From NCBI GenBank assembly GCA_016282145.1, contig JAEEJZ010000060.1, positions 1 to 64,000 on the forward strand: 64,000 nucleotides of DNA, in the 5' to 3' direction. Made by a program: the position numbers and the translations under genes. This stretch comes from Bacteroidales bacterium. Lineage in GTDB: Bacteria; Bacteroidota; Bacteroidia; Bacteroidales; UBA932. Under the pieces are notes generated by a model. It saw only the letters and a list, made by a program, of their open reading frames with translations. It was not told the origin of the DNA and ran no database searches. Shown here one piece after another: positions 772 to 26,212 of this stretch. The stretch's first letter is position 1. Every line of letters begins with the position of its first letter.

Positions 772-810
772 AAAGCGGCTGCGGCTTTTGGCCGGGCCGC
801 TTTGTTTTTT
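772..810 (+). terminator. Rho-independent terminator after the beta-helix protein
   Basis: Inverted repeat AAAGCGGC (772-779) / GCCGCTTT (796-803) followed by TTTGTTTTTT. Confidence 0.7.
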
Positions 811-838
811 GAAACAGTAGAGTTTTTTTCTATCTTCG
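808..838 (+). promoter_or_regulatory. Bacteroidetes-type promoter for the HTCS gene
   Basis: TTTG (808-811), 19-nt spacer, TATCTTCG (831-838), 11 nt before ATG at 850. Confidence 0.55.
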
Positions 839-849
839 CAGTGTTCAGA

Positions 850-7700: not shown

Positions 7701-7962
7701 GCTCCAGAACCTCCAGATTGGCTGGAATCTGCCGCAGAAGTGGGTCAAACGAATCGGCCTGAACGGGCTGGGCATCTACTTCTCGGGTGAAAACCTCTAT
7801 ACCTGGTCCCCGATTTACAACCTGACCACGGATATCGACATCGTCACCGCCACCCAGGGTTCCGACAAGGACTTCGGTGTCTCGACCGGCAACAACTACG
7901 GCGACGGTAACAGCCTTCCGTCCCTGCGGACATTCAGCTTCGGTTTAACCATCAAAATCTGA
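4723..7962 (+). CDS. SusC/RagA family TonB-linked outer membrane protein
   Basis: CarboxypepD_reg-like N-terminus (VTGIVKDAATGE..IGAGVLIKGTNEGTVTSVDGEFSL), TonB-dependent plug (VLIDGVEGDPALLNPDDIESVSVLKDAASASIYGSRA), beta-barrel C-terminus. Confidence 0.97.
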   Translation: MQRFILSLLLGLLTVTGFAQKIKVTGIVKDAATGESAIGAGVLIKGTNEGTVTSVDGEFSLMAAPGQEIVVSLLGYDDYTFKVSGPGPVSIGLSTSSEFLNDAIVVGYGSVKRANLTGAVDQVSSEVFEGRPSSNATQMLVGAIPNLNITLTDGKPSRSADFNIRGTTSVGGGGSALVLIDGVEGDPALLNPDDIESVSVLKDAASASIYGSRATFGVVLITTKDAAKEAGKFNFSYNGNYSILKPCNLPNIVDDGYVYASLFRDAYYNYYGIMPSSINSSMEFSQAWLDEFLRRKQKGIKEEVAIDESGHYVYYGNTNYYDVVYKPFTFAQTHNLSTSGTTGKIDYYLSGRIYKYDGIINFNPDEYFTTSLRAKVTARPTSWLKIWENISFNYEKNHIPSNHNQNNVGLFLRTIQDEGHVCSVIYNPDGTYTKSAAMTVGGLIDGNCFTDKVRNEMTSTTGLRAEFFDHSLRLNADFTYRASWYDNMKKNAMVSYSEAPGEISWIGTPGANDFVQETWYRSGYIATNIYAEYAKVWKDRHDFKALVGFNWERSTGKIVEVLRYGLISSDVQSINMAMGDNFSLYSYESRWRTAGFFARLNYAYDERYLIELNGRYDGSSKFPTNQQWGFFPSVSAAWRVSKEHWWKVNPISVSNMKVRFSWGELGNGNVSPFSYVEKFGFSNLSNIIDGEGKRRITSIPGQIPDGLTWETSRTLDGGIDIGFYKGKINLTADYYERNTLNMYTVGPSLPDTYGASAPKGNYADLITRGFEVSASYDDSFRVGGHDLNLGFKATLADNRTFITRYNNPTKALSDYYEGQEVGEIWGFQFGGFFESQEQIDNFYGPGDPYVNRIIQINNGYVSKPGDVILKDNNGNHLIDKGAETADDPGDMVRVGNKHPRFHYSFSANLEWNGIYISAMFRGIGKQDWYPSGESVIWGQYHRPYGHALAWTVNNAWTPENPNSYLPKYSGYYRIFFSGQHKVDKYVMNAAFCRLQNLQIGWNLPQKWVKRIGLNGLGIYFSGENLYTWSPIYNLTTDIDIVTATQGSDKDFGVSTGNNYGDGNSLPSLRTFSFGLTIKI

Positions 7963-7967
7963 CAGAT

Positions 7968-9818
7968 ATGAAAAAGTACAGATATCTTATGATTGCGGCG
8001 CTGGGCGCCCTCTGCATAACCTCCTGTTCTCTGGAAGAGGAGATGGTGACGCAGGGCAGCAAAGACCTCATCTTCGGTTCCACCCAGGGACTGGAGGCCT
8101 ACTCGCTGTCCTTTTACCAGCAACTTCCCTCGCTGAGCGAACTCAGCGCTGCGGAATCGACCTCGGACTACGGCGTGGGGAAGAACGTCAGTGAATTCTA
8201 CACGAACGCATACAGCGCGGAGACCAGCACCTCCTGGGGCTGGGGAGACCTGCGCAAGGTCAATTATTTCATCGACGGGCTCCATAGCAAGGAGTGCACC
8301 GTTCCCGAGACGGACAAGGAGCACTACGAAGGGCTTGCCCGCTGGTTCAGGGCCTATTTCTACTACAACAAGCTTTTCAAATATGGCGGCGTTCCCTGGT
8401 TCGACCACTGCCTGAAGAACGACGAACTGGACGAGATGTACAAGAACCGCGATTCGCGCGATGTGATTATCAGCCACATCATCGACGACCTGGATTATGC
8501 GATTCAACACATCCAGACCACTTCCTCCATCGGCAATACACGCATCTCCAAAAATGCCGCACTGGCGCTGAAGTGCCGCGCCTGCCTCTGGGAAGCCTCC
8601 TGGCGGAAATATCACGGCATCGGGACGACGGAGTGGTCGGCCAACCGCCTGTACCGCGAGGCCATCGGGGCCGCCGAGACCATCATGAACGATTCTTCAG
8701 TGGAATTGAACACCGAGGTCTGCGCTGACTCCTATATGACGAACAACCCTTCCCTGGGTGCATACAGAAGTGTCTTCTATTCCAAGAATATCCTCACTAA
8801 CGAGGTGATTCTGGGCGTACAGGCCTCCCTGCTGGACCTCGTTACCGGCGACGCCAACTATTATTGGAACTCAGCTACATACGGCGACTGCCGCTGCATC
8901 TCCAGGGCCTTCATCCACACCTATCTCTGCACGGACGGAACGCGCTTCACGGACAAGAGCAACTATTCGGCCATCAACTTCATCAACGAGTTTACCGGAC
9001 GCGATGCCCGCCTTGCCCAGACCGTCAAGGGGCCCAAATATGAGATTGCCGGCGGAGGCTGGAGGGACCGTCGTCCGAACATCGTGGACGGCGTGGCCAT
9101 TACCGGCTATCAGCCCATCAAGTTCGTGGAAGATACGACGACGAAGAACGGTTCCAGCAAGAACGAGAACAGCCTCCCCGTCTTCCGCTACGCCGAAGTG
9201 TTGCTGAACTACGCCGAGGCCAAGGCGGAACTGGGAGAGATTACCGATTCCGACTGGGCTAACACCATCGGTGCGCTGCGCCTGCGGGCCGGCTTCCAGA
9301 ACAAAGCCGGCGTCACCTCTTCGCTGCCCACGTCCGTGGACCCCTATCTCCAGAGCGTGTTCTATCCGGACATCAACAATCCCGTCATCCTGGAAATCCG
9401 CCGCGAGCGGGCCATCGAGCTTTGCTACGAGGGCTTCCGTGCCGATGACCTCAAGCGCTGGAAAGAGGGCAAGAACTTTGAGCGCGTGCCCTGGACCGGT
9501 ATCCACGTACCTTACCTCGACGCACAGTTCAAAGTGAACGACGACGATACCAATGACTTCTATGTCACCTATAAAGACTATGTCGATGTTCCGTCCTACG
9601 CGCAGAACAAGTATGTCCAACTTTTCCCGGAAGACTCCGCCGAACAGGGCCTGCGCATAGACGAGAACCCCGGCGGCGGCTATGACCTCCGCTACGAAGT
9701 GGTCGTAAAACGCAAATGGCACGATGACGACCGCCAGTATCTCTATCCTATCCCGGCTGCCGTCATCCGCGAATACAACAACCGCGGTTACAAACTGGAT
9801 CAGAACCCCGGATGGTAA
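7968..9818 (+). CDS. SusD/RagB family lipoprotein
   Basis: Lipobox ITSCSLEEE; 'EVLLNYAEAKAELGEI' and 'EIRRERAIELCYEGFRADDLKRWKEG' SusD motifs; directly after susC. Confidence 0.96.
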   Translation: MKKYRYLMIAALGALCITSCSLEEEMVTQGSKDLIFGSTQGLEAYSLSFYQQLPSLSELSAAESTSDYGVGKNVSEFYTNAYSAETSTSWGWGDLRKVNYFIDGLHSKECTVPETDKEHYEGLARWFRAYFYYNKLFKYGGVPWFDHCLKNDELDEMYKNRDSRDVIISHIIDDLDYAIQHIQTTSSIGNTRISKNAALALKCRACLWEASWRKYHGIGTTEWSANRLYREAIGAAETIMNDSSVELNTEVCADSYMTNNPSLGAYRSVFYSKNILTNEVILGVQASLLDLVTGDANYYWNSATYGDCRCISRAFIHTYLCTDGTRFTDKSNYSAINFINEFTGRDARLAQTVKGPKYEIAGGGWRDRRPNIVDGVAITGYQPIKFVEDTTTKNGSSKNENSLPVFRYAEVLLNYAEAKAELGEITDSDWANTIGALRLRAGFQNKAGVTSSLPTSVDPYLQSVFYPDINNPVILEIRRERAIELCYEGFRADDLKRWKEGKNFERVPWTGIHVPYLDAQFKVNDDDTNDFYVTYKDYVDVPSYAQNKYVQLFPEDSAEQGLRIDENPGGGYDLRYEVVVKRKWHDDDRQYLYPIPAAVIREYNNRGYKLDQNPGW

Positions 9819-9837: not shown

Positions 9838-12378
9838 ATGAAAACACTGAAACACACCGCATTATTGATTTCTCTCCTACTGCTGCTTCCCGCCTGCTAC
9901 CAGAACCAGCAGTTGGATTACAGCAAATGGTACACGGTAGAGGCGGAAGACGATCCCGTTCCCACTGAGGATATCAAGGGTCTGATGATCATGTCCTCCA
10001 ACGTGCGCTTCTATTCCGCACGCTACAAGAAGGACAATCCGGACACCGGAGACCGTGACTGGGAAGTGCGTAAGAAAGGCTATTTCCAGATGGTGAATAC
10101 CATGCAACCCATGGTGATGGGCCTTCAGGAAGCCGAAATGAACCAGGTGACCGACATTATTTCCAACTGTAACGGATATGCTTATATCGGGGTTGGCCGC
10201 AACGACGGTGCGATGAGTGGAGAATCCACCTCTATCGTTTACAAAACCAACGAGATTGAAGTGGAAACCTGGGGAACCGTCTGGCTTTCCAACACGCCCG
10301 ACACCCCGGGGAGTTATTTCCCGGAAATGACTGACAGGCAGCCGCGTACGGCAACCTGGGCCATCCTTCTGGAAAAGGAGCACGAGCGCAGGTTCTTCTA
10401 TATCAACGGCCATACCAGTCTGGTGGAAGCGTCCCAGCCAAAGGAAGTCCAGGTTATCCTGAACACCGTCACCGAAAAATGCCCGGCCGGACTTCCGGTG
10501 GTCCTTTCCGGTGACTGGAACGTGGAGGAGACGAATCCAATTATGGCGCCCGTCCTGGCCAAGTATGCCAGTGCAAGGCAGACAGCCGAAGCGACGGACA
10601 ACATCATCACCTATCACTGGTGGGGATCCCAGAGCGTCATCAGTGAAAACAAGCACCTGGACCACATCTTCTCCGACGGTTTTGAGAAATGCCTCCGCTT
10701 CCGCACCCTGAATATGAAGTGGAAAGGCCTGTGGATTTCCGACCACAATCCGGTCTATGCCATCTACCGCTTCAAGGAGGGATCCGCCGACAAGCCCAAA
10801 CCTGTCGCTGATTTCGAAATTCCGGCAACCCCGCTGATGGACGAAATTCTGAAATTCACGGACAAGTCGACGGCTGAAGACGGTATCGAAATGTGGAACT
10901 GGAACATCGGCGGCATCGTTTCGACGGAACAGAACCCGGAAGTGATTTTCAACACCTACGGAGATGATATTCCCGTCAGCCTGACCGTTACCGACCACTA
11001 CGGACAGAAAGCGACGGCCACCAAGACCTTCTCCGTCGCCCGCTCCGAGGGGCACGACCTCACCATCGAATGGAGGGTGCTCTATGACGATACGGTTGAC
11101 GGCAAGGGCTCTGCCGTGGCAGACTGGACCGCACCGGCCGTTACGCCGGACGGAAGCAAGATCTATGTCGCTTCCTCGGGCTACAACATCGTCGGCTTCA
11201 ATCCTGACGGAAGCACTTTCGGCAGTTACGATATCGGACGCCGTGAACCTTACATTACCGATCGCGACATACAGACCCCGACGCCGTCCATCGACGCCCA
11301 GGGCAATGTTTACATTCCCGTGCAGTATTACTACAACTCGGAAGGCCACGGCGGCGTATACTCCCTGCGGGGAGACCTGTCCGGAGAGAACTGGTATCAC
11401 GATACCGGCAACTCCTCGCAATTCCGGAACACGATTCCGGCCATCATCGGCGACTACGTTGCCGTTCCGATGACCAACAGCGGCAACGACCTGACGTCGA
11501 ATATGGCTGTCTTCAGGCGTTCCAACGGAGACCTGGTCCAATGCCTCCAGTGCGACAAGGGTTCCTGGGGCGGGGTTGCCATCGGCTACAACGGGGAACT
11601 CATTTACGGAACGGCCCGCGGCGGCACCCGCCAGGGACGTGAACCCGGCAACGAGACCGGCGGCGGCTACCATATCTCCCCCGTTGACGGGAGCATCGGC
11701 CACTGGAAGACGAACGGGAATACGGACAGCGACCGTAAGACCAACCTTCTGGGTATGCGTCATTCCGACGGGAACGGCTACCTGACCAAGGCCTTCCAGC
11801 CTGCCGTGGGAACCAACCACTGTGTCTATGTCTGTTCCACCAGTGACAACGAGAATCTGATTTGCGCCAAATTCAACGTGGACAATTATGTACTCGGCTC
11901 GACGCCTACCCCGCTCTGGAAAGTAGAACTGGAATCCCATTCCGATGCGGGCGTGATGGGGCTCGGCTGTGTGCTGGATCCGGAAGGAAATGCTTATTTC
12001 CGTGCAGCGGAGAAAGTGTTCCGCCTGAACAACAGGAACGGAGAAGTAGGCTGGGTCGTGACTACGGAAGGCAACTACAACACCGGTGTCCCGGCCATCG
12101 ATTCTATGGGCTATCTCTATGTCGTGGATTATGGCGGAAACAAACTGCTGAAACTCTCATCCGCAGACGGAAAGCTGATATCTTCCGTGGAACTGGACAA
12201 TCCCAGGACCAGCCCCACCATCGACGCTAACGGCAATATTTACGTAACCGGCAGTTGCGAGTCCGGAGCGGTGCTATACAAGATCACCTGCCCCAAGACG
12301 ACGGCACCTGGTTCCAACTGGTCGCAGCTGGGCGGCAATCCCCAGAAAACCTGCACCCCTCCCGGATTTAATCTTTAG
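9838..12378 (+). CDS. Lipoprotein: endonuclease/exonuclease/phosphatase (EEP) domain + PKD domain + PQQ-like beta-propeller
   Basis: Lipobox LLPACYQ. EEP motifs SSNVRF, GLQEAE, NGHTSL, LSGDWNVEE, SDHNP. PKD 'ADFEIPATPL..FTDKST'. Propeller ends ITCPKTTAPGSNWSQLGGNPQKTC. Confidence 0.88.
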   Translation: MKTLKHTALLISLLLLLPACYQNQQLDYSKWYTVEAEDDPVPTEDIKGLMIMSSNVRFYSARYKKDNPDTGDRDWEVRKKGYFQMVNTMQPMVMGLQEAEMNQVTDIISNCNGYAYIGVGRNDGAMSGESTSIVYKTNEIEVETWGTVWLSNTPDTPGSYFPEMTDRQPRTATWAILLEKEHERRFFYINGHTSLVEASQPKEVQVILNTVTEKCPAGLPVVLSGDWNVEETNPIMAPVLAKYASARQTAEATDNIITYHWWGSQSVISENKHLDHIFSDGFEKCLRFRTLNMKWKGLWISDHNPVYAIYRFKEGSADKPKPVADFEIPATPLMDEILKFTDKSTAEDGIEMWNWNIGGIVSTEQNPEVIFNTYGDDIPVSLTVTDHYGQKATATKTFSVARSEGHDLTIEWRVLYDDTVDGKGSAVADWTAPAVTPDGSKIYVASSGYNIVGFNPDGSTFGSYDIGRREPYITDRDIQTPTPSIDAQGNVYIPVQYYYNSEGHGGVYSLRGDLSGENWYHDTGNSSQFRNTIPAIIGDYVAVPMTNSGNDLTSNMAVFRRSNGDLVQCLQCDKGSWGGVAIGYNGELIYGTARGGTRQGREPGNETGGGYHISPVDGSIGHWKTNGNTDSDRKTNLLGMRHSDGNGYLTKAFQPAVGTNHCVYVCSTSDNENLICAKFNVDNYVLGSTPTPLWKVELESHSDAGVMGLGCVLDPEGNAYFRAAEKVFRLNNRNGEVGWVVTTEGNYNTGVPAIDSMGYLYVVDYGGNKLLKLSSADGKLISSVELDNPRTSPTIDANGNIYVTGSCESGAVLYKITCPKTTAPGSNWSQLGGNPQKTCTPPGFNL

Positions 12379-12541: not shown

Positions 12542-15500
12542 ATGAAAAAGTTCTATTTCCATCTATGCGTCCTGCTGGGTCTGTCTCCCCTGTCCGCCTG
12601 TGTACAGGAAATGACACTCCCCTCTGAAGAAGTCACTTACTTCGAAGCTTCCCTCTTTACTCCGGATGACGAGAGCGCTAAAACCGTATTGGGAGAAAAG
12701 GGAGAGCATACGGCGGGTTATTATCCGAACTACTGGGCGGCAGGCGACGCCATCTCGGTGAACGGCCTCAAGTCGGCTTCCCTTGCCGGCGATTCTCCCT
12801 TCGTGGGAACGAAAATCGCCCGTTTCCAACTGACCGGCAGCCTCAGCACACCCTACCACTGTGCCTATCCGGCTTCAGCCATCTCCTCTTACAGCAACGG
12901 CAGCGCGAACGTCACGCTGCCTGCCACGCAGACGCTGTCCACCTCGTCCTATGACGCATCGGCCTTCATCATGCTGAGCAAGGGCAGCAATTACACCCTG
13001 TCTTTCTCTCCTGCAGTCAGCCTGATCAGACTGACCGTCCCGGGCCCTTACGATGCCCGCCTCTCCTCCGTAATGTTCGAGAGTCTGGGAGGCGCCAAGG
13101 TGAGCGGACGCTTCACCACCGACTTCAGTGGTATCAGCGGTACCGGCAGCGCTACCTCCCGGGTCGTTGGCTACGCCCCCGGCGACGGAATTGAATTCGG
13201 CAACGGCGTATATCTGGTCATCCCGGCCCAGACCTATAGCGGCGGCATGAAATTCACCGTCCGAGCCACGGACGGGAAGCAGATGGTCTTCCAGACCGGA
13301 AGTACACTCGAAGCCAAGCCGGGAAGGGTCTATAAACTGACCTCGCAGCAGTTTACGCCGCAGGCGGAAACCCTCCCCGACGGCTTGTTCATCATGTCTT
13401 CCAACGTCCGCTTTGCATCGGCCCGCGACAAGAGCACCAATCCGGATACCGGAGACCGCGACTGGACCAACCGCAAAAGCGCCTACTATGCGATGGTCAA
13501 TTTCTACCGGCCGGCGGTCATCGGACTGCAGGAAGCGGAGAAGGAGCAGGTAAAGGACATCAAGAACAATTGCAGCGGCTACGGCTACTACGGCCTTGGC
13601 CGCAAGAACGGCAAGGACATCCTTGCCGATGACAGCTACTGGGGCCTGGTTCCGGGCACGCAGGCCGGAGAGGAGTCCTCCACCATCCTTTACCGGACCG
13701 ATCTGATTACCCTGGGCAGCCACGGGACGTTCTGGCATTCCAACTCGCCCAACACGGCCGGCAGTTATTTCCCTGCGATGACGGACCATGTCCCCCAGAC
13801 ATCCACCTGGGCCATCCTGACGTACAAACCCACAAACACGCAATTCTTCTTCCTGAATACGCATCTGAGCCTGTATGACTCGAGACCCGATGAAATTCAG
13901 CTCATCCTGAACTCCGTCGCCAGTAAGAATACCGGTAATCTTCCCGTAGTCATGACCGGCGACTGGAACCTGCAGGAAGGGGATTCGTGGTTGAATCCCA
14001 TAGAAAATGCCTATTCCAATGCCCGCCACAGAGCCCAGAAATCGGATTTCTATGGAACCTACCACTGGTGGGGAACAGAGAGCAAGGTCATCGACCATAT
14101 TTACTATAAAGGATTCGGCGACTGTCTGATGTATCATACCGACAATAGGAAATGGAACAATAAGTACGTATCGGACCACTATGCAATCTTCACCATCTTT
14201 GATCCCACCAGCACCACGCAATCCATTCCTACAGCAGAATTCGACATCCCGGACGATGTGCAGATTGATGAACCCTGCAGCTTTACCGACCGTTCCTACT
14301 CTCCCGCCGGCATCGCCTATTGGGAATGGAACATAGACGGCATCCGCTCCAGCGAGCAGAATCCGGTGGCTACCTTCCGGAGCGTGAAGGACCAGGCTGA
14401 GGTCCGGCTGACCGTAGTGGACAACAACGGACAAAGTGCAACGATAACCAAACTTGTAAACGTCCAGAGTTCTGACGACCACGCGCTCACAGCGGCCTGG
14501 AGCCGTGTCTACGACAGCAGCACGGACGCTACCGCCTACTGGACGTCGCCTGCCGTCAATGCTGCCGGCGACCGGATTTACGTTTCTTCCTCCGGCTATC
14601 ACCTGGTGGCTTACAACGCTTCCGGCACGCAGCAGGGCAGCTTCGATATCGGCCAGTACGGCGCAGCCATCAGCGGAAGCAAGAACTGCCAGACCTGTAC
14701 CCCGTCCGTCGACGTGGAAGGGAATATCTACATCCCGGTGCAGTATTCCACGAACGCCGGCGGAAACGGAGGCCTATTCTGCATCAAACCCGATATGACT
14801 CAGAAGTGGTATGTGGCCACAGGCGAGAATTCGATCTACCGCACGCACATTCCTGCCATATTCGGCAGCTATGTGAGCGTCATCACGCGCAATGTGGACG
14901 GCAGCCTGTTCGATTCGAACATGATTATCCTGAACCGTAGCAACGGCAGCCTCTACCAGACGCTTGGATGCGACAAGGGCTCCTACGGCGGCATGGCCGT
15001 AAGCGCCGACGGGAAACTGGTCTTCGGCTCCGCCCGCGGCGGCGCATCCAGCGGTACAGCGGCCGGCACCGAAACCAGCGGCGGCTTCAAGGTCGGTGTA
15101 TTTGACAGTACGCTCGATGCCTGGAAAACCTCCGCCAATACCGACGCCGGACGCGCCTTGAACCTATTGGGCATGACGCATACCGACGGAAACGGTTACC
15201 TGACCAAGGGCTTCCAGCCTGCGATTTCCTCCGTTGACGGCAGCGTGTATGTCTGCGCCACGACGACCAACGAAAATATGATCGTCGCCCGCTACCGGCT
15301 TGACAACTACATCTACGGCTCCGCCGCCACCTGCCTCTGGAAGGTGGAAGTGGAAGCAGCGGCCAACAACTTCGGCCTGGGTTGCGTCCTGGACGATGAC
15401 GGCAACGCCTATGTACGGGCAGCCGACAAGGTATTCAAGCTCAATGCACTCGACGGGGCGCTGGCCTGGGAGCGGACAACCGGCACCGGCAACTGCGGTG

Positions 15501-15853
15501 TCCCTGCCATCGATAACCTGGGTTATGTGTATGTTACGGACAGCGGGAAACGGCGTATATTGAAGCTCTCCCCGCAGGACGGGTCGTTGATTTCTCAGTA
15601 CCTTTTTGAGACCTCACAACCCCGAACCAGCCCGACCATCGACTATAATGGTAACATCTATGTGACCTGCACCTCCATCAATGACGAAGGTGCGATGCTC
15701 TACAAGATTACCTGTCCCAAGACCACCGGGCCCGGCGCCAACTGGTCGCAGTTGGGCGGGGGTCCGCAGAAGAACTGCCGTGTACCCAGCCCCGTTGAGA
15801 TTTATGGCGGCACCGGTTCTCACGAGCAGTATAATAGCATCACTCTGTTTTGA
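12542..15853 (+). CDS. Lipoprotein paralog: fimbrillin-like N-terminal region + EEP domain + PKD + PQQ-like propeller
   Basis: Lipobox LSACVQE. EEP motifs SSNVRF, GLQEAE, NTHLSL, MTGDWNLQE, SDHYA. Downstream PKD and propeller parallel the 9838 gene and end ITCPKTTGPGANWSQLGGGPQKNC. Confidence 0.88.
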   Translation: MKKFYFHLCVLLGLSPLSACVQEMTLPSEEVTYFEASLFTPDDESAKTVLGEKGEHTAGYYPNYWAAGDAISVNGLKSASLAGDSPFVGTKIARFQLTGSLSTPYHCAYPASAISSYSNGSANVTLPATQTLSTSSYDASAFIMLSKGSNYTLSFSPAVSLIRLTVPGPYDARLSSVMFESLGGAKVSGRFTTDFSGISGTGSATSRVVGYAPGDGIEFGNGVYLVIPAQTYSGGMKFTVRATDGKQMVFQTGSTLEAKPGRVYKLTSQQFTPQAETLPDGLFIMSSNVRFASARDKSTNPDTGDRDWTNRKSAYYAMVNFYRPAVIGLQEAEKEQVKDIKNNCSGYGYYGLGRKNGKDILADDSYWGLVPGTQAGEESSTILYRTDLITLGSHGTFWHSNSPNTAGSYFPAMTDHVPQTSTWAILTYKPTNTQFFFLNTHLSLYDSRPDEIQLILNSVASKNTGNLPVVMTGDWNLQEGDSWLNPIENAYSNARHRAQKSDFYGTYHWWGTESKVIDHIYYKGFGDCLMYHTDNRKWNNKYVSDHYAIFTIFDPTSTTQSIPTAEFDIPDDVQIDEPCSFTDRSYSPAGIAYWEWNIDGIRSSEQNPVATFRSVKDQAEVRLTVVDNNGQSATITKLVNVQSSDDHALTAAWSRVYDSSTDATAYWTSPAVNAAGDRIYVSSSGYHLVAYNASGTQQGSFDIGQYGAAISGSKNCQTCTPSVDVEGNIYIPVQYSTNAGGNGGLFCIKPDMTQKWYVATGENSIYRTHIPAIFGSYVSVITRNVDGSLFDSNMIILNRSNGSLYQTLGCDKGSYGGMAVSADGKLVFGSARGGASSGTAAGTETSGGFKVGVFDSTLDAWKTSANTDAGRALNLLGMTHTDGNGYLTKGFQPAISSVDGSVYVCATTTNENMIVARYRLDNYIYGSAATCLWKVEVEAAANNFGLGCVLDDDGNAYVRAADKVFKLNALDGALAWERTTGTGNCGVPAIDNLGYVYVTDSGKRRILKLSPQDGSLISQYLFETSQPRTSPTIDYNGNIYVTCTSINDEGAMLYKITCPKTTGPGANWSQLGGGPQKNCRVPSPVEIYGGTGSHEQYNSITLF

Positions 15854-18015
15854 TGAAAAGATTCAGCATAGTATTGGGATTTCTTCTGCTGGCAGCCCTT
15901 GTCGCAAGGGCTGCCACGGCAGAGGAAATCGTTTTGAGGGAAGCGCGTTTCCACCTGGGAGATGCCCCGGAAGGCTGGATGGCCCCCGGTTTTGACGACA
16001 GTGATTGGCAGACAATGGCCATCCCCTTCAAATGGGAAGGGGCCGGGATGTATGCCCAGTACCGGATTTCATTCCAGCTTCCCAAGGGCTTTGTGCGTAA
16101 TGCCGCCTACAAGGGAACCGTCCTCTTCGACCTGGCCTATATCGACGATTGCGACGAAGCGTTCCTGAACGGGAAACGCATCGGCAAGAGCGGTCTGATG
16201 CCGCTGGACGGGAAGCCCCAGTCGGCCTGGGACAAACACCGCATCTATAAGGCGGATGCCCGTGAACTCCGGGAAGGAGAAAACCTGCTGACCCTGCTGG
16301 TCTGGAACCGCCGCACGCGCGGAGGAATCTACGGAGGTCCCCTGCGTATCCGGATGGCAAGACTGGAAGACCTGGTCAGCATCAGTTGCTCCGACGACGG
16401 CAATGCGGACCACTGCAAGATCAGCATCTCCTCGGACATTTCCTTCAAGGGGACGGTGATGGTGGACGCTTTCTCACAAAATGTATCCGTCACCCCGGAG
16501 AAGCCCTTTGAGCGGGAAATCAGTTATACCGGGGTCGAACCCGTACAAATCAGCGTCAGCATCAAGGACAGGCGCAGCGGACAGACTGTCCAGCGCAAGT
16601 TCATTCCGAAGTACTGCCTTACGCCCCCGGCGCCGGCAGTACCGAGGTATAACGGACCCGCCGTTCTCGGCGCACGCCCCGGCTCCCCCATCTATTTCCG
16701 GCTGCCGTTCTCCGGGCTCCGGCCCATGCAGTTCAGCGCGACGGGATTACCTTCCGGACTGGCGCTGGATGCCGAAAGCGGCATCGTCAGCGGCTCAGTG
16801 AGCGAAGCCGGCGACTATCGTATCGAATGGGAAGCCGGCAATGCGGAGGGCATCGGCAAAGGCAGTCTGCTCCTGAAAGTGGGCTATACCCTCGCCCTCA
16901 CACCCCCGATGGGCTGGAACAGCTGGAATTGCTGGGGACTGGACATCTCGCAGGAGAAGGTCACGGCCTCCGCGCAAGCCCTGCTGGACAGCGGACTGGC
17001 GGACTACGGCTATTGCTATGTCAATATCGATGATGCCTGGCAGGCTGCAACGCGCGACAGCGACGGCACGCTGCTTCCGAATGAAAACTTCCCGGACATC
17101 GCTGCGCTCGGGGCCTGGCTGCACAGCCAGGGACTGCGGCTGGGCATCTATTCTTCGCCCGGTGCGCGTACCTGCGGCGGCTATCTGGGATCTTTGGGTT
17201 TTGAAGAAAAGGATGCCCAAACCTGGAACGAATGGGGCGTGGATTATCTGAAATATGACCTCTGTGGCTACAGGGCCATTCTCGATGCACTCCCCTGCGT
17301 CCTGCAGGCGGACCATATCCGGCCCTACCTCAAGATGGAAGAATACCTGAGAAACCAGCCCCGGGATATCGTTTACTCCCTCTGCCAGTATGGACTGGGA
17401 GAAGTATGGACCTGGGGAAAGCTGGTGGACGGCAATCTCTGGCGGACCACGGGAGATATTACCGATACCTGGGAATCCGTACGCCGCATCGGCTTCAACA
17501 GCCAGCGTAAACTGTCGGCCTATGCCGGACCGGGTCACTGGAACGACCCCGATATGCTGGTTGTCGGCAAGGTGGGCTGGGGAGAAGGGCTGCGCGACAG
17601 CCGCCTCAGCGCTGATGAGCAATACGCCCACATTTCGCTCTGGGCCCTGCTCTCCGCCCCGCTGATGATCGGTTGCGACCTCTCTTCCCTGGACAAGTTT
17701 ACCCTGAACCTGCTCTGTAACAACGAGGTGATCGCAGTAGACCAGGATCCGCTGGGGAAACAGGGTACCTGCCTGTATGAGGAAGAAGGCCTGGAGATCT
17801 GGGGCAAACCCCTTGCAGATGGTTCCATTGCCGCCGGTATCTTCAATTCGGGAGAGAATCCCGTCATCCTCCGTCCGGCCACATACCTCAAGAAAGCCGG
17901 ATGGGCTGTCGAGGGCCCCTGCCGGGACCTTTGGAGACAGCGGGAATGTCCCAAAGAAACGGGCATTCCTCCGCACGGCGTCCTTTTCTTGAAATTTAAC
18001 GCGAAACAACAATGA
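15853..18015 (+). CDS. GH27 alpha-galactosidase with N-terminal jelly-roll and putative-Ig (He_PIG-like) domains
   Basis: LTPPMGWNSWNCWG; YVNIDDAWQ; nucleophile region YLKYDLCGY; acid/base region GHWNDPDML. Start overlaps previous stop (TGATG). Confidence 0.93.
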   Translation: MKRFSIVLGFLLLAALVARAATAEEIVLREARFHLGDAPEGWMAPGFDDSDWQTMAIPFKWEGAGMYAQYRISFQLPKGFVRNAAYKGTVLFDLAYIDDCDEAFLNGKRIGKSGLMPLDGKPQSAWDKHRIYKADARELREGENLLTLLVWNRRTRGGIYGGPLRIRMARLEDLVSISCSDDGNADHCKISISSDISFKGTVMVDAFSQNVSVTPEKPFEREISYTGVEPVQISVSIKDRRSGQTVQRKFIPKYCLTPPAPAVPRYNGPAVLGARPGSPIYFRLPFSGLRPMQFSATGLPSGLALDAESGIVSGSVSEAGDYRIEWEAGNAEGIGKGSLLLKVGYTLALTPPMGWNSWNCWGLDISQEKVTASAQALLDSGLADYGYCYVNIDDAWQAATRDSDGTLLPNENFPDIAALGAWLHSQGLRLGIYSSPGARTCGGYLGSLGFEEKDAQTWNEWGVDYLKYDLCGYRAILDALPCVLQADHIRPYLKMEEYLRNQPRDIVYSLCQYGLGEVWTWGKLVDGNLWRTTGDITDTWESVRRIGFNSQRKLSAYAGPGHWNDPDMLVVGKVGWGEGLRDSRLSADEQYAHISLWALLSAPLMIGCDLSSLDKFTLNLLCNNEVIAVDQDPLGKQGTCLYEEEGLEIWGKPLADGSIAAGIFNSGENPVILRPATYLKKAGWAVEGPCRDLWRQRECPKETGIPPHGVLFLKFNAKQQ

Positions 18016-19448
18016 AAAAAATATGGCTCCCCATACTGGGCGGAGCGCTGATGCTCCTCCCCGCGCAGGGCGTTGCCCAGGAAATCCAACCGGACATCAC
18101 ATCGGTAAAGCTGAGTGTGACGGTGGATCCGACATCCATCAAGGGCCCCATCAAACCGATGAACGCCGTCAACAACGGACCGGATATCGACGACGAACGG
18201 CAAATGAAGGATTTCCGGATTCTCCAGATTCCTTTCAGCCGCACGCACGATGCTAACGAAGGTTACTACGGAAAGCGCCTGGTGGACATCAGCGCCGTAT
18301 TTCCCGATTTCAGCAAGGACCCCGACAAGGCCTGCAACTATGATTTCCGGGAAACGGACGCCTATATCCGGACGCTCATCAATTCCGGCAGCGAGCCCTT
18401 TTACCGGCTCGGTCAGACCATCGAAAACCAGACCGCCGCAAAATACGACATCTATCCCCCGAAGGATTATAAGAAATGGGCACGAATCTGCGAACACATC
18501 ATCCGCCATTATAATGAAGGATGGGCAGATGGCTTCCATTACAATATCCGCTACTGGGAAATCTGGAACGAGGCCGACCTGGACCAGAGTTCCGGACGCT
18601 GGCAGACCGAACCCCGCACCTGGGGCGGCCCCATCGAAGAATTCCACAAGATGTACGCCGTCGCGGCCAAGCACCTCAAGGCCTGCTTCCCCGGCCTGAA
18701 AATCGGCGGCCCTTCCTATTGCCGCATCCAGGGAACGAAAACCTATTTCCCTCAGTTCTTCGCCTTTATGAAAGAGAACGATGTCCCCATTGATTTCATT
18801 TCCTGGCACAAATACGGCGCCGAACCTTCAGTGTTCCTGATGGAGTCGGAACTCATCCGGGGATGGATGAAGGAGTACGGCTACGCTGATGCCGAACTCA
18901 TTCTCAACGAATGGAATTACCGCCGGTTCAAGTCCCCAGGAGGTGACAGCACCAACGAACGCTACAACAACATCCACCGCCGCTCCATCAAGGGAGCAGC
19001 CTTTGCAGGCGCCGTCATGTCGGTGATGCAGGATGCCCCGGTGGATATGCTGATGTATTACGATTTCCGCCCCTGCACATCCTATTGCGGGTTCTATGAC
19101 TACCAGACCCGGCAGCACATGCCCGTCTATTATACTTTCTACGCCTGGAGCAAACTTCGCGGCGATGAATGTGCCTGCCAGGTCGAAGGCGGGGCTGCGG
19201 ATGTTTATGCCATAGCCTCCACGCAGGAAGGGAAAACCGTCCTGATGCTTACCCGCTATGACGGGGACAACAACGCCTGCAACCTGGCCAAACTTACCAT
19301 CTCCCTCAAGGGCGGACGCATAGGCCAGGGCTGCTATCATCTGACCGACGACGAACACCTTTATACGGAAATCCCTTTCTTCCCTTCGGAAGACGGAACG
19401 GTACAAATCGAAATGAAGAACAATGCCATTGCGGTGTTGGAATTGTAG
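18012..19448 (+). CDS. GH39-like secreted glycoside hydrolase
   Basis: Signal peptide; 'YWEIWNEADLD' acid/base and 'LILNEWNYR' nucleophile regions; ATGA overlap with GH27. Confidence 0.8.
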   Translation: MKKIWLPILGGALMLLPAQGVAQEIQPDITSVKLSVTVDPTSIKGPIKPMNAVNNGPDIDDERQMKDFRILQIPFSRTHDANEGYYGKRLVDISAVFPDFSKDPDKACNYDFRETDAYIRTLINSGSEPFYRLGQTIENQTAAKYDIYPPKDYKKWARICEHIIRHYNEGWADGFHYNIRYWEIWNEADLDQSSGRWQTEPRTWGGPIEEFHKMYAVAAKHLKACFPGLKIGGPSYCRIQGTKTYFPQFFAFMKENDVPIDFISWHKYGAEPSVFLMESELIRGWMKEYGYADAELILNEWNYRRFKSPGGDSTNERYNNIHRRSIKGAAFAGAVMSVMQDAPVDMLMYYDFRPCTSYCGFYDYQTRQHMPVYYTFYAWSKLRGDECACQVEGGAADVYAIASTQEGKTVLMLTRYDGDNNACNLAKLTISLKGGRIGQGCYHLTDDEHLYTEIPFFPSEDGTVQIEMKNNAIAVLEL

Positions 19449-19451
19449 AAA

Positions 19452-20714
19452 ATGAAACGGCTTCTTTTGATTTTCATCTTTGCCGCCCTGTGCGGAGCCT
19501 GCAAGGAAACCCTGCCTGATTTTCCCGAAGTGGGAGAACCTTATGCCGTGACGAGCGGCCCGCACGACCATTTCCTGGCCAATTATTTCGGGCTCAATGC
19601 CTGGAGTCCGGACGGGCGCTACCTGGCCGTCCTGGAGACGGATGTCAACGGCCGTCTGGCCGTAGAAGGCGAAGAGGCCACCATCGCCCTGGTAGACCTC
19701 AAGGACGGGAACAAACTCATTCCCATCGCAAAGACCCCCTGCTGGAACTTCCAGGAAGCCACGATGTTCCACTGGCTGCCCTGGGAAGACGGGGCCTGCA
19801 TCTACAATGACTGCCGATACGGAAAGTTCGTTTCTGTCATCTATAATTGGAAGACCGGTGCGGAACGGGTCATCCCCTATCCCGTCAGTGCAGTCTCCGC
19901 GGACGGCCTGCAGGCCGTTTCGATCAACTATGCCCGCCTGCGTCTCTGCCGGCCCGATTACGGTTATGCCGGAAGCGGACAGGATCCGCTGCGCGAGCAG
20001 GTTTGGCCGGAAAACGACGGACTCTATCTGGTGAACCTGCGCACCGGGGAAGGGCGGCTGATCCTTTCAATCAAGGACGCGCAGCCCCTGATGCCCGCCA
20101 TCAACGGGCCTGACGGATTCGCCTACTTCTGCCACACCGTCTTCAGCAAGAACGCCAAGAAAATCTTTTTCCTGGCCCGGACCGTGGAAGACCTGGACAA
20201 GCAGGTTGCACAGTTCGGCATCGTCAGGGTCTGGGATACGGCTTCGTTCACCATCGATACGGATGGCGGCAATCTGCGGCGCTGCTTCCCCGATGGCTGG
20301 AGAGGCTCCCACTTCAACTGGCTGGACGACGAGACCCTGACCGTGACGGCTCGATGGGATGGCGGAGGATGCTGGTCCCATACGGTATTCAAAGTAGGTG
20401 ACGAGGCCAATGTCCGCCACCTGGCACCCGGCATCATGGACTGGGACGGGCACTGCATCTTCTCCCCCGACGGGAAATTCATCTCCTCCGAGGGCTACTG
20501 GAACAAGGATGGCTACCGCAGTTGGGTGCTGCTGCGCCTGGAAGACGAGGCCCTCATCTCCCTGGGACGCTTTTACGTTCCGGACGATTACAAGGAACAA
20601 TATTCCCGCTGCGACCTGCACGCCCGCTGGCGTCCCGACGGCAGCCAACTGGCTTTCAATTCCGTGCATGAGGGCAGCCGACAGGTCTATCTGCGGGATG
20701 TAAAATGGAAATGA
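19452..20714 (+). CDS. Lipoprotein, TolB/oligogalacturonate-lyase-like beta-propeller of unknown activity
   Basis: Lipobox LCGACKE; repeated 'SPDGR/SPDGK' blades; C-terminal 'RCDLHARWRPDGSQLAFNSVHEGSRQVYL'. Confidence 0.7.
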   Translation: MKRLLLIFIFAALCGACKETLPDFPEVGEPYAVTSGPHDHFLANYFGLNAWSPDGRYLAVLETDVNGRLAVEGEEATIALVDLKDGNKLIPIAKTPCWNFQEATMFHWLPWEDGACIYNDCRYGKFVSVIYNWKTGAERVIPYPVSAVSADGLQAVSINYARLRLCRPDYGYAGSGQDPLREQVWPENDGLYLVNLRTGEGRLILSIKDAQPLMPAINGPDGFAYFCHTVFSKNAKKIFFLARTVEDLDKQVAQFGIVRVWDTASFTIDTDGGNLRRCFPDGWRGSHFNWLDDETLTVTARWDGGGCWSHTVFKVGDEANVRHLAPGIMDWDGHCIFSPDGKFISSEGYWNKDGYRSWVLLRLEDEALISLGRFYVPDDYKEQYSRCDLHARWRPDGSQLAFNSVHEGSRQVYLRDVKWK

Positions 20715-22501
20715 GAAAACGACTGACCCTAATTGCACTGCTGCTGGGGACCCTGCTTCCCGCACAGGCTTTCACGCTGACGGAAGGAAGGGAATGCCTT
20801 TCTCTCGGCGGTCCCTGGCATTATATCGTCGATCCGATGGATACCGGCATCTACAAATATCAGATGCAGCTCCAGAAGCCTACGAAGCGTTATTTTGCCG
20901 ACCGCCACTTCTATCAGGACAAGACCCGGCTCATCGAATACGATTTTGACAAGGCGCCGACGCTCCAGGTGCCCGGCGACTGGAACAGCCAGTCCGAGAG
21001 GCTCTATTTCTACGAAGGCAGCCTGTGGTACCGCCGGACAATCGACTTCCGGCCTGTGCCGGGAAAGCGCTGTTTCCTCTACTTCGGGGCCGTCAACTAC
21101 AAGTGCATGGTAGGGCTGAACAACACCATCCTGGGCACGCATAAGGGCGGATTTACGCCTTTCTGGTTTGAGGTGACCGATGTCCTGAAGGAAGGCGAAA
21201 ACAGTCTGATTCTCTGGGTGAACAATACCCGCGGGACAGATGAAGTGCCCACGCTCAACTTTGACTGGTGGAACTACGGCGGCATTACACGCGAGCCGTT
21301 GCTGGTCAGCGTCCCCCAGACCTTTATCCGCGACTATCGCGTGCGCTTCGACGGATCCGAAATCGCCGTTTCCGTCTTTCTTGACGGCGGCAGCGGAAGC
21401 GTTACGCTGGAAATTCCCGAACTGGGGCTCAGGAAGAAAGCCTGCGGCGGAAAAGACGGCGTGGCTGAATTCCGTTTCAAGGCTTCCCCGGAGCGCTGGT
21501 CTCCGGAGCATCCGAGGCTGTACGACATTCATCTCCGCTGCGGCGATGATGCGCTCAAAGACCGCATCGGCTTCCGGACTGTGCGGGCGGAGGGTGAGCA
21601 GATTCTGCTCAACGACAAGCCCGTATTCCTTCGGGGTGTCGCCGTGCACGATGAGACCGTCAGCCCTAATCCCGGCCGCTGTCGCAACGAAGAGGAAGTA
21701 CGTGCCCTGCTGGAGCTGGCGAAGGACCTGGGCTGCAACTTCCTCCGACTGGCACACTATCCGCACAGCGAGCAGATGGTACGCCTGGCCGAAGAGATGG
21801 GCTTCCTGCTTTGGGAGGAAATCCCCTGCTACTGGAATATCAACTGGGCTTCAGAGGAGACCTATGCCAATGCCGAGAACCAGCTTGTGGAGATGATTAC
21901 GCGTGATTACAACCGCGCCGCCACCATCATCTGGTCCGTCGCCAACGAAACGCCGCTTACTTCCGAGCGGATGTCCTTCCTGAGCAAACTCATCGACAAG
22001 ACCAGGGAGATGGATCCCACGCGGCTGGTGAGCGCCGCCATCCAGAAGGAAAAACCGGACCTCTACCATCCGGTCATCGCGGATGAACTCGCCAAGCTGA
22101 CCGACCTCGTCAGTTTCAACCAGTATATCGGCTGGTACGACGGAAAACCCGCCGACTGCGACTCTGTCCGATGGACCGTTCCCTCCGGGAAACCCGTCGT
22201 CATCAGCGAATTCGGCGGCGGTGCGCTCTATGGGAATCACGGCAGCGAAGCGGAACTGTTCACGGAAGAATACCTCGCTGAGGTGTACCGCAAGCAATTG
22301 CCGATGATTATGGGGATCCCGGGAATCAGCGGGATGAGTCCCTGGTGCCTGAAAGATTTCCGCTCCCCAAAGCGGCCGCTGACCGGCATCCAGGACGACT
22401 TCAACCGCAAAGGGCTGGTCGACGAGCAGGGACGCCGCAAGATGGCGTTCTTCGTGATGCAGGATTTCTACCGCGCCAAAGCGGCAGGCCTTTCTCAATA
22501 A
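20711..22501 (+). CDS. GH2 family glycosidase, candidate beta-glucuronidase
   Basis: Sugar-binding/Ig/TIM organisation; FLRGVAVHDE, SVANETP (acid/base), VISEFGGG (nucleophile), C-terminal NRKG. ATG at 20705 or 20711 overlaps the previous stop. Confidence 0.88.
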   Translation: MRKRLTLIALLLGTLLPAQAFTLTEGRECLSLGGPWHYIVDPMDTGIYKYQMQLQKPTKRYFADRHFYQDKTRLIEYDFDKAPTLQVPGDWNSQSERLYFYEGSLWYRRTIDFRPVPGKRCFLYFGAVNYKCMVGLNNTILGTHKGGFTPFWFEVTDVLKEGENSLILWVNNTRGTDEVPTLNFDWWNYGGITREPLLVSVPQTFIRDYRVRFDGSEIAVSVFLDGGSGSVTLEIPELGLRKKACGGKDGVAEFRFKASPERWSPEHPRLYDIHLRCGDDALKDRIGFRTVRAEGEQILLNDKPVFLRGVAVHDETVSPNPGRCRNEEEVRALLELAKDLGCNFLRLAHYPHSEQMVRLAEEMGFLLWEEIPCYWNINWASEETYANAENQLVEMITRDYNRAATIIWSVANETPLTSERMSFLSKLIDKTREMDPTRLVSAAIQKEKPDLYHPVIADELAKLTDLVSFNQYIGWYDGKPADCDSVRWTVPSGKPVVISEFGGGALYGNHGSEAELFTEEYLAEVYRKQLPMIMGIPGISGMSPWCLKDFRSPKRPLTGIQDDFNRKGLVDEQGRRKMAFFVMQDFYRAKAAGLSQ

Positions 22502-24822
22502 GAAAGTCTGAAAAGTACGGGATAGTGGTCCGAGATGAACTTCACCTCGGGATCATAGACCTTGGTGTCCACCAGATAGGCTTCGGGCTTACCCGCCGTG
22601 TAAAAGATATAGTCGATCAGGGCTGCTGACTTGGACTTCCCAAAGGAATGGAAGGTCTTCAGGCTGGTCGATTCCGTTTCCGGACAGGTCGTACGGGCAT
22701 CATTGAAAATACCCAGGAGCGTCTGGATGGAGGATTCCTCCACGACGTTGTTCAAGTCCCCGACCAGGAAGACCGGAGTAGTGGACGTCCTGAAATCTTG
22801 GCGCCGGATTCCCGTAAGTTTCTCCATCTGCGTGAGCAGGATTTCCACTTCCTCATCCGGAAGTTTGGGATTTTCCTTTACCGACCAACTTATATGGGCC
22901 GAAAAGAACCATAACTTCTTGCCGGGACAGGCCTTTTCTTCCAGATGCGCCCAGGAGACGACAATCGGGCTGTGCTGTCCAAGATGAGTGGAGGCGGTCT
23001 GGGCAGGATCGTCGCTCAGATAGAAGCATCCGTGTCCCAGTTCGCGGAAACGGGCCTTGCGGTACATCAGTCCGACAGCCTCGTCGGAGCTGCGGACCAT
23101 CGGGGCATCCCCGCTGTAACGTCCGGGACAGTAGATGGCCCAGTCTTTGCCGAAATCCTCCACCAGGTCCTTGAATTGGGTCCGGCGCACTTCCTGCAGG
23201 CCCACCAAATCCAGATCGTTCCGGGCATAGAAAGCCTTGACGGCACTTCTGCGTACGGGCCAGGGCTGACCGCCGAATTTGTAATCATAGTCCGGCCGGT
23301 TGTCGTCCAGGAAACGGACATTGAAGGTAGCGACAAGCAGTTTCTCAGCGGGACGGATTACCGTCCTGCCGCGGCGGATGGCATAAGGGTTACCGTTGAT
23401 GAAGAGCGTGTAAGGCTTGTTGCTCTTGACGCGTACGACGCCCTTGTCATAGAGAATATCCGTTTTTATGGCACCGAAAGTGAGTTTCCGGATGCCGTGC
23501 CGGCAGCTCTGATGCAGATTCCAGCGGACCGTGGCCGAGGCGGCATCCACCTCGTAGAAGCCGAGCACGTTTTCGATGAAGAGGGAGATGGGGCCCAGGG
23601 CCGACCAGCCGCAGAAATCGCCCTTCACGGCCTTGACCGCACTGCCGCTGCCGGTTTTCTTGCTGGAGGGTTCGGGACGGCTGGGATTGTAGCACTCCCA
23701 GATGGTATGCGGCTCATACTCCGCATAGGTCCGCCACATATGTTCCAGGATGGCCTCGGAAGTCGTGTTCGCCTCCTCGAAGAAGCCGTATTTTTCCAGC
23801 GCCTTGATGCCCATATAGGCGGTGGGCAGCCAGAGGGAGCCCCGCCAGTAATTGCCGTCGGGATCGAACTGCTCGTCGTCCCGGGCCACGGAAGTCCAGG
23901 GAACGGCGCCGCCGAGTTTGTCGTCCTTCAGGGCGAAATCGACCATGGCCTTCGCCTGTGCCTGGGAAGGGATTTCCGCCAGCATCGGCCAGAAGGAAGC
24001 CGGAGTGAGGATGTGCGTTTTGGACAGGTCGTCTTCGCGGATATCGTAATAGCAACCGTCCTCCGCATCCCAGTAATATTGGTTCACCTTGGCCTTCAGG
24101 TCCTCGTATCTGGCCCTGAACTCCTCTTCGGTAGCGCTGTCGCCGGCAACGCGCGCCAGCCTGGCGATGTACAGTGCGGACAGGGCCTGCTGGGAGATGG
24201 CATCGATCCAGAACATCGGCATGCCGCGCATGCGGGGCGTATTGTCCATTCCGCTCTGCCAGCGGTTCCAGTTGTAGCCTGTCCCCTTGTATTTGATGCG
24301 CACGCCGTCCCGGCTGATGGGGAAGGAGAACTGCGTATCGTGGTCTATCGTATTGAAGAAATCGAAATGTTTCTGCAGGAAGCGCTTTTCACAGAGCAGC
24401 TTGCGGATATGCGCCGTGTCGTCCGTAAACTTGAAATAATCGCTTTCCACCCAGGCGAAGAAGGGCGGGTTGTCCGGATGTTGGACGCTGATGGGAGAGC
24501 CGGCGTTCTCGTGGAGGGTGTAGTAGAAATTGTCCAGCGTCTGGATGCCGGGGAATTCCTTCGGGGCATATTTGCAGAACATCACCATGAATTCCGAATC
24601 CCAGATCCAGATGGCGTCGTCACGGAAACCCTCGTCCATATAGCGGGGCTGCACGAGTCCCGGCTGGTATTTGATATGGGCACGCGCCTGTTCCCAGGCG
24701 GTCCAGTACAGGTCTACATATTCAGGCTTCGCGTCAAAAACCGGCACAGGAATGTTCCGGGAGCCCGCATTCAGTGCCAGGCAGCCCAGAAAGGCGCTGA
24801 GGGCAAGGAAGATTTTTCTCAT
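22495..24822 (-). CDS. Secreted (alpha/alpha)6 glycosidase (GH63/MGH1-like) fused to a C-terminal EEP phosphoesterase domain
   Basis: N-terminal 'DDAIWIWDSEFMVMFCKYAP..' and 'YWRGSLWLPTAYMGIKALEKYG'; C-terminal 'LLVATFNVRF', 'GLQEVR', 'AHISWS', 'VGDLNNVV', 'SDHYPVL'. Confidence 0.85.
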   Translation of the reverse strand: MRKIFLALSAFLGCLALNAGSRNIPVPVFDAKPEYVDLYWTAWEQARAHIKYQPGLVQPRYMDEGFRDDAIWIWDSEFMVMFCKYAPKEFPGIQTLDNFYYTLHENAGSPISVQHPDNPPFFAWVESDYFKFTDDTAHIRKLLCEKRFLQKHFDFFNTIDHDTQFSFPISRDGVRIKYKGTGYNWNRWQSGMDNTPRMRGMPMFWIDAISQQALSALYIARLARVAGDSATEEEFRARYEDLKAKVNQYYWDAEDGCYYDIREDDLSKTHILTPASFWPMLAEIPSQAQAKAMVDFALKDDKLGGAVPWTSVARDDEQFDPDGNYWRGSLWLPTAYMGIKALEKYGFFEEANTTSEAILEHMWRTYAEYEPHTIWECYNPSRPEPSSKKTGSGSAVKAVKGDFCGWSALGPISLFIENVLGFYEVDAASATVRWNLHQSCRHGIRKLTFGAIKTDILYDKGVVRVKSNKPYTLFINGNPYAIRRGRTVIRPAEKLLVATFNVRFLDDNRPDYDYKFGGQPWPVRRSAVKAFYARNDLDLVGLQEVRRTQFKDLVEDFGKDWAIYCPGRYSGDAPMVRSSDEAVGLMYRKARFRELGHGCFYLSDDPAQTASTHLGQHSPIVVSWAHLEEKACPGKKLWFFSAHISWSVKENPKLPDEEVEILLTQMEKLTGIRRQDFRTSTTPVFLVGDLNNVVEESSIQTLLGIFNDARTTCPETESTSLKTFHSFGKSKSAALIDYIFYTAGKPEAYLVDTKVYDPEVKFISDHYPVLFRLSY

Positions 24823-24940: not shown

Positions 24941-26212
24941 ATGAACAAATCCAATATCGGCTTCCGCCTTATCGTGATGAATTTCCTGGAGTTCGCCGCC
25001 TGGGGCGCCTACCTTACCTCCATGGGCAGTTTCCTCGCAAGCGCCGGCTTCGGACCGCAGATCTGGCTTTTCTTTGCTACGCAGGGTTTCGTTTCGATTT
25101 TCATGCCCGCGCTGATGGGCATCATCGCCGATAAATGGATTCCCGCGCAGAAGGTGCTTTCGCTTTGCCAGGGCCTTGCCGGTATGGCGATGCTGGCTGC
25201 CGGCTGGTATGCGATGAACGCCGGCGCAGGCATCCAGTTCGGAATGTTCTATGCCCTCTATACGCTCAGCGTCGCTTTTTATATGCCCACGATCGCCATC
25301 TCCAACGCTGTGGCATACAATGCATTGGAGAAGGCCGGGAAGGATCCGGTCAAGGCGTTCCCGCCCATCCGCGTATTCGGGACGGTGGGATTCATCGCCA
25401 CGATGCTCTTCGTGAATTTCATGCGCGGTGCCGACGGCGTGCAGTTCCAGCATACCTACAACCAGTTCTTCGTATCGGGCATCCTCAGCCTCGTCCTCGC
25501 CGCCTATGCGCTGACCCTGCCCGACTGCCCCTGCAAGCCGAAGAGCGAAGGCAGCCAGTCCTTTGCCGAAGCGACCGGCCTCAGCGCTTTCCGCCTGTTC
25601 AAGGACAGACAGTTCGCCATTTTCTTTATTTTCTCGATGTTGCTGGGCGCATCCCTGCAGATTACCAACGGCTACGCCAACACCTTCATTACCTCTTTCA
25701 AGGAGAATCCTGCCTTCTCGAGCGCCTGGGGCGCCCACAATGCCAATGCGCTGATTTCCCTGAGCCAGGTATCCGAAACGCTCTGCATCCTGCTGATTCC
25801 TTTCTTTATGAAGAAATTCGGCATCAAGAAAGTGATGCTCATCGCCATGTTCGCCTGGGTATTCCGCTTCGGCTTCTTCGGCGCGGGCAATCCCGGCAGC
25901 GGCGTGTGGATGTTCGTGCTGAGCTGCCTCGTTTACGGCGTGGCCTTCGACTTCTTCAACATCTCCGGCTCACTCTTCGTCAACGAGAATACGGACAAGG
26001 ACATCCGTTCCTCTGCACAGGGACTCTTTATGCTGATGACGAACGGACTCGGCGCCTCGATCGGCACCTGGGCCGCCGGCAAGGTGGTGAACTACTATGT
26101 CTATAACGCTGCGACACCGTCATGGAGTACCGCGTGGTATATCTTTGCGGCTTACTCGCTGCTCGTCGGCGTACTTTTCTCCATCCTCTTCAAAGATCCG
26201 CAGAAAGCCTAG
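24941..26212 (+). CDS. NupG/XapB-like MFS nucleoside:H+ symporter family permease
   Basis: FLEFAAWGAYLTSMGSFL..., 'MPALMGIIADKWIPAQKVL', 12-TM hydrophobicity pattern. Confidence 0.82.
   Translation: MNKSNIGFRLIVMNFLEFAAWGAYLTSMGSFLASAGFGPQIWLFFATQGFVSIFMPALMGIIADKWIPAQKVLSLCQGLAGMAMLAAGWYAMNAGAGIQFGMFYALYTLSVAFYMPTIAISNAVAYNALEKAGKDPVKAFPPIRVFGTVGFIATMLFVNFMRGADGVQFQHTYNQFFVSGILSLVLAAYALTLPDCPCKPKSEGSQSFAEATGLSAFRLFKDRQFAIFFIFSMLLGASLQITNGYANTFITSFKENPAFSSAWGAHNANALISLSQVSETLCILLIPFFMKKFGIKKVMLIAMFAWVFRFGFFGAGNPGSGVWMFVLSCLVYGVAFDFFNISGSLFVNENTDKDIRSSAQGLFMLMTNGLGASIGTWAAGKVVNYYVYNAATPSWSTAWYIFAAYSLLVGVLFSILFKDPQKA

Follow-up and report, generated by a model that had tools for sequence, protein, structure and literature searches.

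Sulfate removal is a well-known step of glycan foraging, and to our knowledge phosphate removal has been little studied. Multicatalytic glycan enzymes that have been described include CE15-GH8 (PMC8417218), acetyl-feruloyl esterases (PMC7110780), and the alpha-galactosidase/sucrose kinase AgaSK (PMC7688924). In all of these a glycan enzyme is covalently joined to a second catalytic step. The second function is in these cases that of an ester hydrolase or a kinase, whereas the protein described here carries an EEP-superfamily phosphoesterase. In our literature search, mostly outside subscription journals, we found neither a glycosidase coupled to an EEP nor a single EEP swapped among glycosidases within a locus.

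The window (the whole 64,000-nucleotide stretch of Bacteroidales DNA) contains on its minus strand a 775-aa gene (22495-24822; start codon 24820-24822, stop codon 22495-22497) for which ORF and Pfam analysis gave a signal peptide, a GH63/MGH1-like glycosidase, and an EEP phosphoesterase. The plus-strand reading of the same interval was ruled out by the presence of stops. These results bear out the preliminary description, which had reported such an ORF with a switch into the EEP at about 23346; we located the switch at residues ~491-495, corresponding to positions 23338-23352. The junction is in frame with neither a stop nor a frame change. At the point where the stand-alone GH63 of a related locus (L090) ends with ..RRGTNVIEP*, the fusion reads ..RRGRTVIRP-AEKLLVATFNVRF, and AEKLLVATFNVRF starts just past the position at which the signal peptide is predicted to end in the free EEPs of relatives. 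The GC3 values of the two halves of the gene (0.78 and 0.68) are close to those of the neighboring genes (0.71-0.79) and are evidence neither way. The earlier proposal of two catalytic domains in one secreted protein also held up, since both modules are complete and sequence comparison showed both active sites to be retained with their catalytic residues intact.

The glycosidase module (residues ~22-490; 23353-24759, minus strand) was defined by Pfam, alignment, and AlphaFold2 as an (alpha/alpha)6 barrel followed by a small C-terminal beta domain. Three Pfam families matched the region of residues ~182-409, namely MGH1-like GH63 (PF22422, 100 bits, cut-off 27), trehalase (PF01204, 66 bits, cut-off 21), and the GH63 C-terminal family (PF03200, 41 bits, cut-off 22.4), such that by Pfam alone a GH37 assignment would also fit. 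Alignment with 19 homologues indicated a full-length module, and a putative acid, D193, and a putative base, E376, are invariant across the 20 aligned sequences. The Glu of the WECYNP motif aligns with the position in QENYNP of YgjK (HMMER alignment), and we take D193 and E376 to be the equivalents of the YgjK catalytic positions D501 and E727. AlphaFold2 returned a pLDDT of about 90 over residues ~24-490, with the beta domain at 424-490, and the closest PDB structures were YgjK, a GH37 trehalase, and a GH63 mannosylglycerate hydrolase. The GH63 enzymes E. coli YgjK and Thermus mannosylglycerate hydrolase TTHA0978 have the (alpha/alpha)6 barrel and the acid/base positions in common with the module and are its best matches in sequence and structure. 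However, the structural identity is only 15-17%, and the window protein differs from the family structures in being fused to an EEP; its glycosidase is also shorter than YgjK, lacking the extra N-terminal part of that enzyme. The module is assigned as GH63/MGH1-like and, going by its family, is predicted to be exo-alpha-acting.

The EEP module (residues ~492-775; 22498-23349, minus strand) was likewise assigned from Pfam, alignment, and AlphaFold2. The Exo_endo_phos profile (PF03372) matched residues 498-766 with 46.6 bits (cut-off 24.5), and the catalytic N, E, H, D, N, D, and DH residues are all in place, at about N501, E544, H643, D689, N691, D737, and D765/H766, as an invariant set in the alignments. 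The full-length AlphaFold2 model was built on glycosidase homologues only, which left its EEP part at very low confidence and the model uninformative on the relative placement of the domains; modeled alone, the EEP reached a pLDDT of 85 and a pTM of 0.89. The best Foldseek matches of this model were 3g6s, 3mpr, and 4c1r; nucleases also have the EEP fold, as do diesterases such as Tdp2, CNOT6L, and PDE12. Entry 4c1r (cf. 3mpr) is Bt3783 from B. thetaiotaomicron, which is annotated as a mannosyl-6-phosphatase; it shares the EEP fold (Foldseek E about 1e-18, 24% identity) and the same catalytic N/E/H/D set. The solved chain of Bt3783 is an EEP alone, whereas the window EEP is fused. A further difference lies at the catalytic His, where Bt3783 has HMDH and all 16 orthologues of the window EEP have SAHISWSV. 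The HxDH motif is also found in many EEPs of the genus. Because it is missing from the window EEP clade, with AHISWS in its place in all 16 orthologues, the module was not filed as a Bt3783-type mannosyl-6-phosphatase. The presence of HISW instead of HxDH may mean that the specificity of this clade differs from that of Bt3783.

The fusion gene is part of a putative polysaccharide utilization locus (PUL) whose other genes described here are all on the plus strand. The hybrid two-component regulator (HTCS, 802-4644), the SusC-like transporter (4723-7962), and the SusD-like lipoprotein (7968-9818) were named from ORF translations and their conserved co-location in related loci, and the CAZymes were named by profile. 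Two lipoproteins that each combine an EEP with a PQQ-type propeller follow, EEP1 (9838-12378) and EEP2 (12542-15853, by Pfam); their EEPs, too, are without the HxDH motif. Pfam also identified a GH27 (15850-18015) with its own N-terminal jelly-roll-like region, which in many congeners is replaced by an EEP, a GH39-like glycosidase (18012-19448), a PD40/WD40-like propeller protein (19452-20714), and a GH2 glycosidase (20705-22501) that lies tail-to-tail with the fusion gene and whose orthologue in one congener, G582, bears an EEP. On the other side, a profile scan placed an MFS transporter of the Nuc_H_symport family (24941-26212) divergent from the fusion gene.

The search for the same architecture covered 398 genomes from the phylum, first 200 and later 400 congeners, and the genomes of 199 relatives (about 1200 prokaryote genomes), together with one genome-contig scan. 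The preliminary description had listed the lack of a homologue with both domains in any related genome among the results that would count against its proposal, and no second GH63-EEP protein was found in this set. A conserved GH63-EEP bifunctional enzyme is not supported, as the architecture was found in only one MAG. An apparent match in locus L089 to residues 6-774 was discarded, as it consists of two overlapping ORFs, an EEP with a GH27 remnant and then a separate GH63. The hosts of the genome-contig matches were mostly Bacteroidales MAGs from the rumen and other ruminant foregut, and the host of the fusion is probably a gut-type bacterium of rumen origin.

Orthologues of the two halves were found in congeners. 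The glycosidase orthologue is a stand-alone protein of ~500 aa (about 75-80% identity). The EEP orthologue is present in 15 other congeners (66-72% identity) and sits in the same PUL wherever the extent of the contig shows it. In G726 and G771 it is a separate protein that bears a signal peptide of its own; it is C-terminal on GH2 in G582, and is N-terminal on GH27, displacing the N-terminal region of that enzyme, in 11 congeners. A twelfth GH27-linked form occurs in G629, where the EEP lies beside a GH27 remnant whose middle has been deleted in frame. The EEP-GH27 and GH2-EEP proteins (L068, L077, and others) thus carry an orthologous EEP in the same PUL, but they differ from the window fusion in the glycosidase partner and, for GH27, in a reversed order of domains. 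The EEP behaves as a roaming module and GH63 as an exchangeable partner. Most of the GH27 catalytic domain is deleted in frame, with the EEP intact, in the EEP-GH27 gene at L158:6107-7315 (equivalent to L089:9905-11113).

Given that the architecture was seen in one MAG, with no second genome among those searched, and that this draft genome comprises 84 contigs, an assembly chimera of two unconnected genes, one for GH63 and one for an EEP, was considered. Several observations make it quite improbable. The join is in frame and falls exactly at the mature ends of both domains. The genome has one copy each of the EEP and the glycosidase orthologue, both within the fusion gene and with no spare elsewhere; its next-closest EEP is 33% identical and its second glycosidase 48%. 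Because the fused EEP is about 30% diverged from every known relative, no known EEP locus could have served as donor. The convergent order of the GH63 and GH2 genes recurs in two related loci (L086 and L088), and other EEP fusions of the same PUL are present in independent assemblies. The clean junction, the absence of a second orthologue from the genome, and a consistent phylogeny suggest that the fusion is probably real and lineage-specific. In a 69-sequence EEP tree, the fused EEP clusters with free and GH2-linked EEPs (support 99/95), and the window GH27 retains its original N-terminal region, as does that of G726, which has a free EEP. A smaller, EEP-only tree did not resolve the position of the fused EEP, and its branch is longer than those of its relatives (0.24-0.28).

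The explanation that we favor, with moderate confidence, is a lineage-specific fusion in a PUL in which the EEP would act as a sugar-phosphate esterase beside exo-glycosidases on a phosphorylated glycan. A secreted GH63/MGH1-like exo-alpha-glycosidase would have gained, as a C-terminal extension, the mature portion of the third EEP of the PUL. This EEP, most likely a metal-dependent sugar-phosphate esterase, would strip phosphate from the glycan or its oligosaccharides and so allow the exo-glycosidases GH63, GH27, GH2, and GH39 to proceed, and tethering might save diffusion and fix the stoichiometry of the two activities. Because the partner varies among GH27, GH2, GH63, or none, the EEP is expected to act on the glycan they share and not on what any single glycosidase releases. 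Judging from the gene fusions, the removal of sugar is probably coupled to that of phosphate when one glycan is digested. It had been suggested at the outset that the substrate has a sugar next to a phosphoester. The repeated coupling of EEPs to glycosidases favors sugar and phosphate on one substrate, but cleavage of such a linkage by the GH63-EEP pair is too specific, since in relatives the orthologous EEP either occurs alone or is joined to a different glycosidase from this PUL.

The sequence of the EEP does not tell a phosphomonoesterase from a phosphodiesterase. Because no typical endo-glycanase or lyase was recognized among the PUL enzymes examined, which are only of the GH27, GH39, GH2, and GH63 types, the chief alternative to the sugar-phosphate esterase is a diesterase. 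The EEPs would then act on a phosphodiester-linked glycan, such as a teichoic-acid-like polymer, a phosphoglycan, or a phosphosphingolipid glycan, with the EEP-propeller lipoproteins depolymerizing it and the GH-linked EEP trimming the ends of oligosaccharides. This one PUL encodes three EEPs whose catalytic sets are complete (the fusion EEP, EEP1, and EEP2), which is consistent with such a role, as are the fusion of EEPs to GDPD, a phosphodiesterase family, and the diesterases Tdp2, CNOT6L, and PDE12 within the EEP fold. The closest characterized structure is nevertheless annotated as a mannosyl-6-phosphatase, and GH39 and GH2 members may cut branched glycans internally; we consider a diesterase role unlikely, if worth keeping in mind. 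A wider proposal, that the PUL specializes in a phosphodiester-linked glycan on which EEPs serve as depolymerases in place of endo-glycanases, that the EEP has been re-tethered time and again to different exo-glycosidases, and that EEPs are an unrecognized accessory catalytic module of Bacteroidales CAZymes, is speculative and seems doubtful to us. Nucleic acids have been proposed as the target of some SusC/D loci with phosphodiesterases (PMC6499787). The EEP fold is common to nucleases, and the adjoining transporter scores 405 bits against the TIGR00889 nucleoside permease, below the cut-off of 446. The EEP could on these grounds be a nuclease or nucleotide phosphohydrolase in a locus that also salvages nucleic acid, with the transporter importing nucleosides. 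The four glycosidases of the locus and the repeated EEP-glycosidase fusion argue against this assignment, and none of the related PUL regions that we searched contained a relative of the transporter; we regard it as very improbable.

EEPs are also fused to other enzymes. Across 15 genomes from the genus, PF03372 matched 3 to 18 times per genome, the window genome having 18 matches, and many of these EEPs are free-standing. Other fusions in the genus include GH97-GDSL-EEP, NAGLU (GH89)-EEP (twice), BNR-EEP, DUF6259-EEP, EEP-GDPD (twice), GH13-EEP, and SASA-EEP; EEP-GH20 and EEP-GDPD were found outside it. On well-supported branches of the 69-sequence EEP tree, the CAZyme-fused label has to change at least 10 times, and therefore fusion or loss occurred many times. 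The finding of one EEP orthologue on GH27, GH2, and GH63 in one PUL, together with EEPs on GH13, GH97, GH89, an acetylesterase, and GDPD, provides strong gene-fusion evidence for EEP action on glycans in these bacteria. The fusions point to small, testable proteins and offer a route to finding phosphorylated glycans in the rumen.

Several of these proteins can be described individually. Another contig of the window genome (C3) encodes a 744-aa fusion of a SASA-type esterase to an EEP (L166:4512-6743, minus strand) that adjoins a GH27 gene without an EEP (6725-8341, minus strand). GH13 alpha-amylase-EEP fusions are present in several congeners (L174:4154-6976, L175:7230-10028, L176:7005-9773, and L177:8475-11231) and may target the phosphate of starch or glycogen. 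The GH97-GDSL-EEP protein is a triple enzyme of 1128 aa (L182:2968-6351). The NAGLU (GH89)-EEP fusions are located at L183:868-3738 and L185:2995-5985, and proteins that combine a glycerophosphodiesterase with an EEP (EEP-GDPD) at L191:2432-4228, L192:1681-3411, and L181:7305-8861. A membrane permease (Ureide_permease/Sugar_transport) with a C-terminal EEP was also observed (L179:443-2398); it is close to a contig end and is possibly an artefact.
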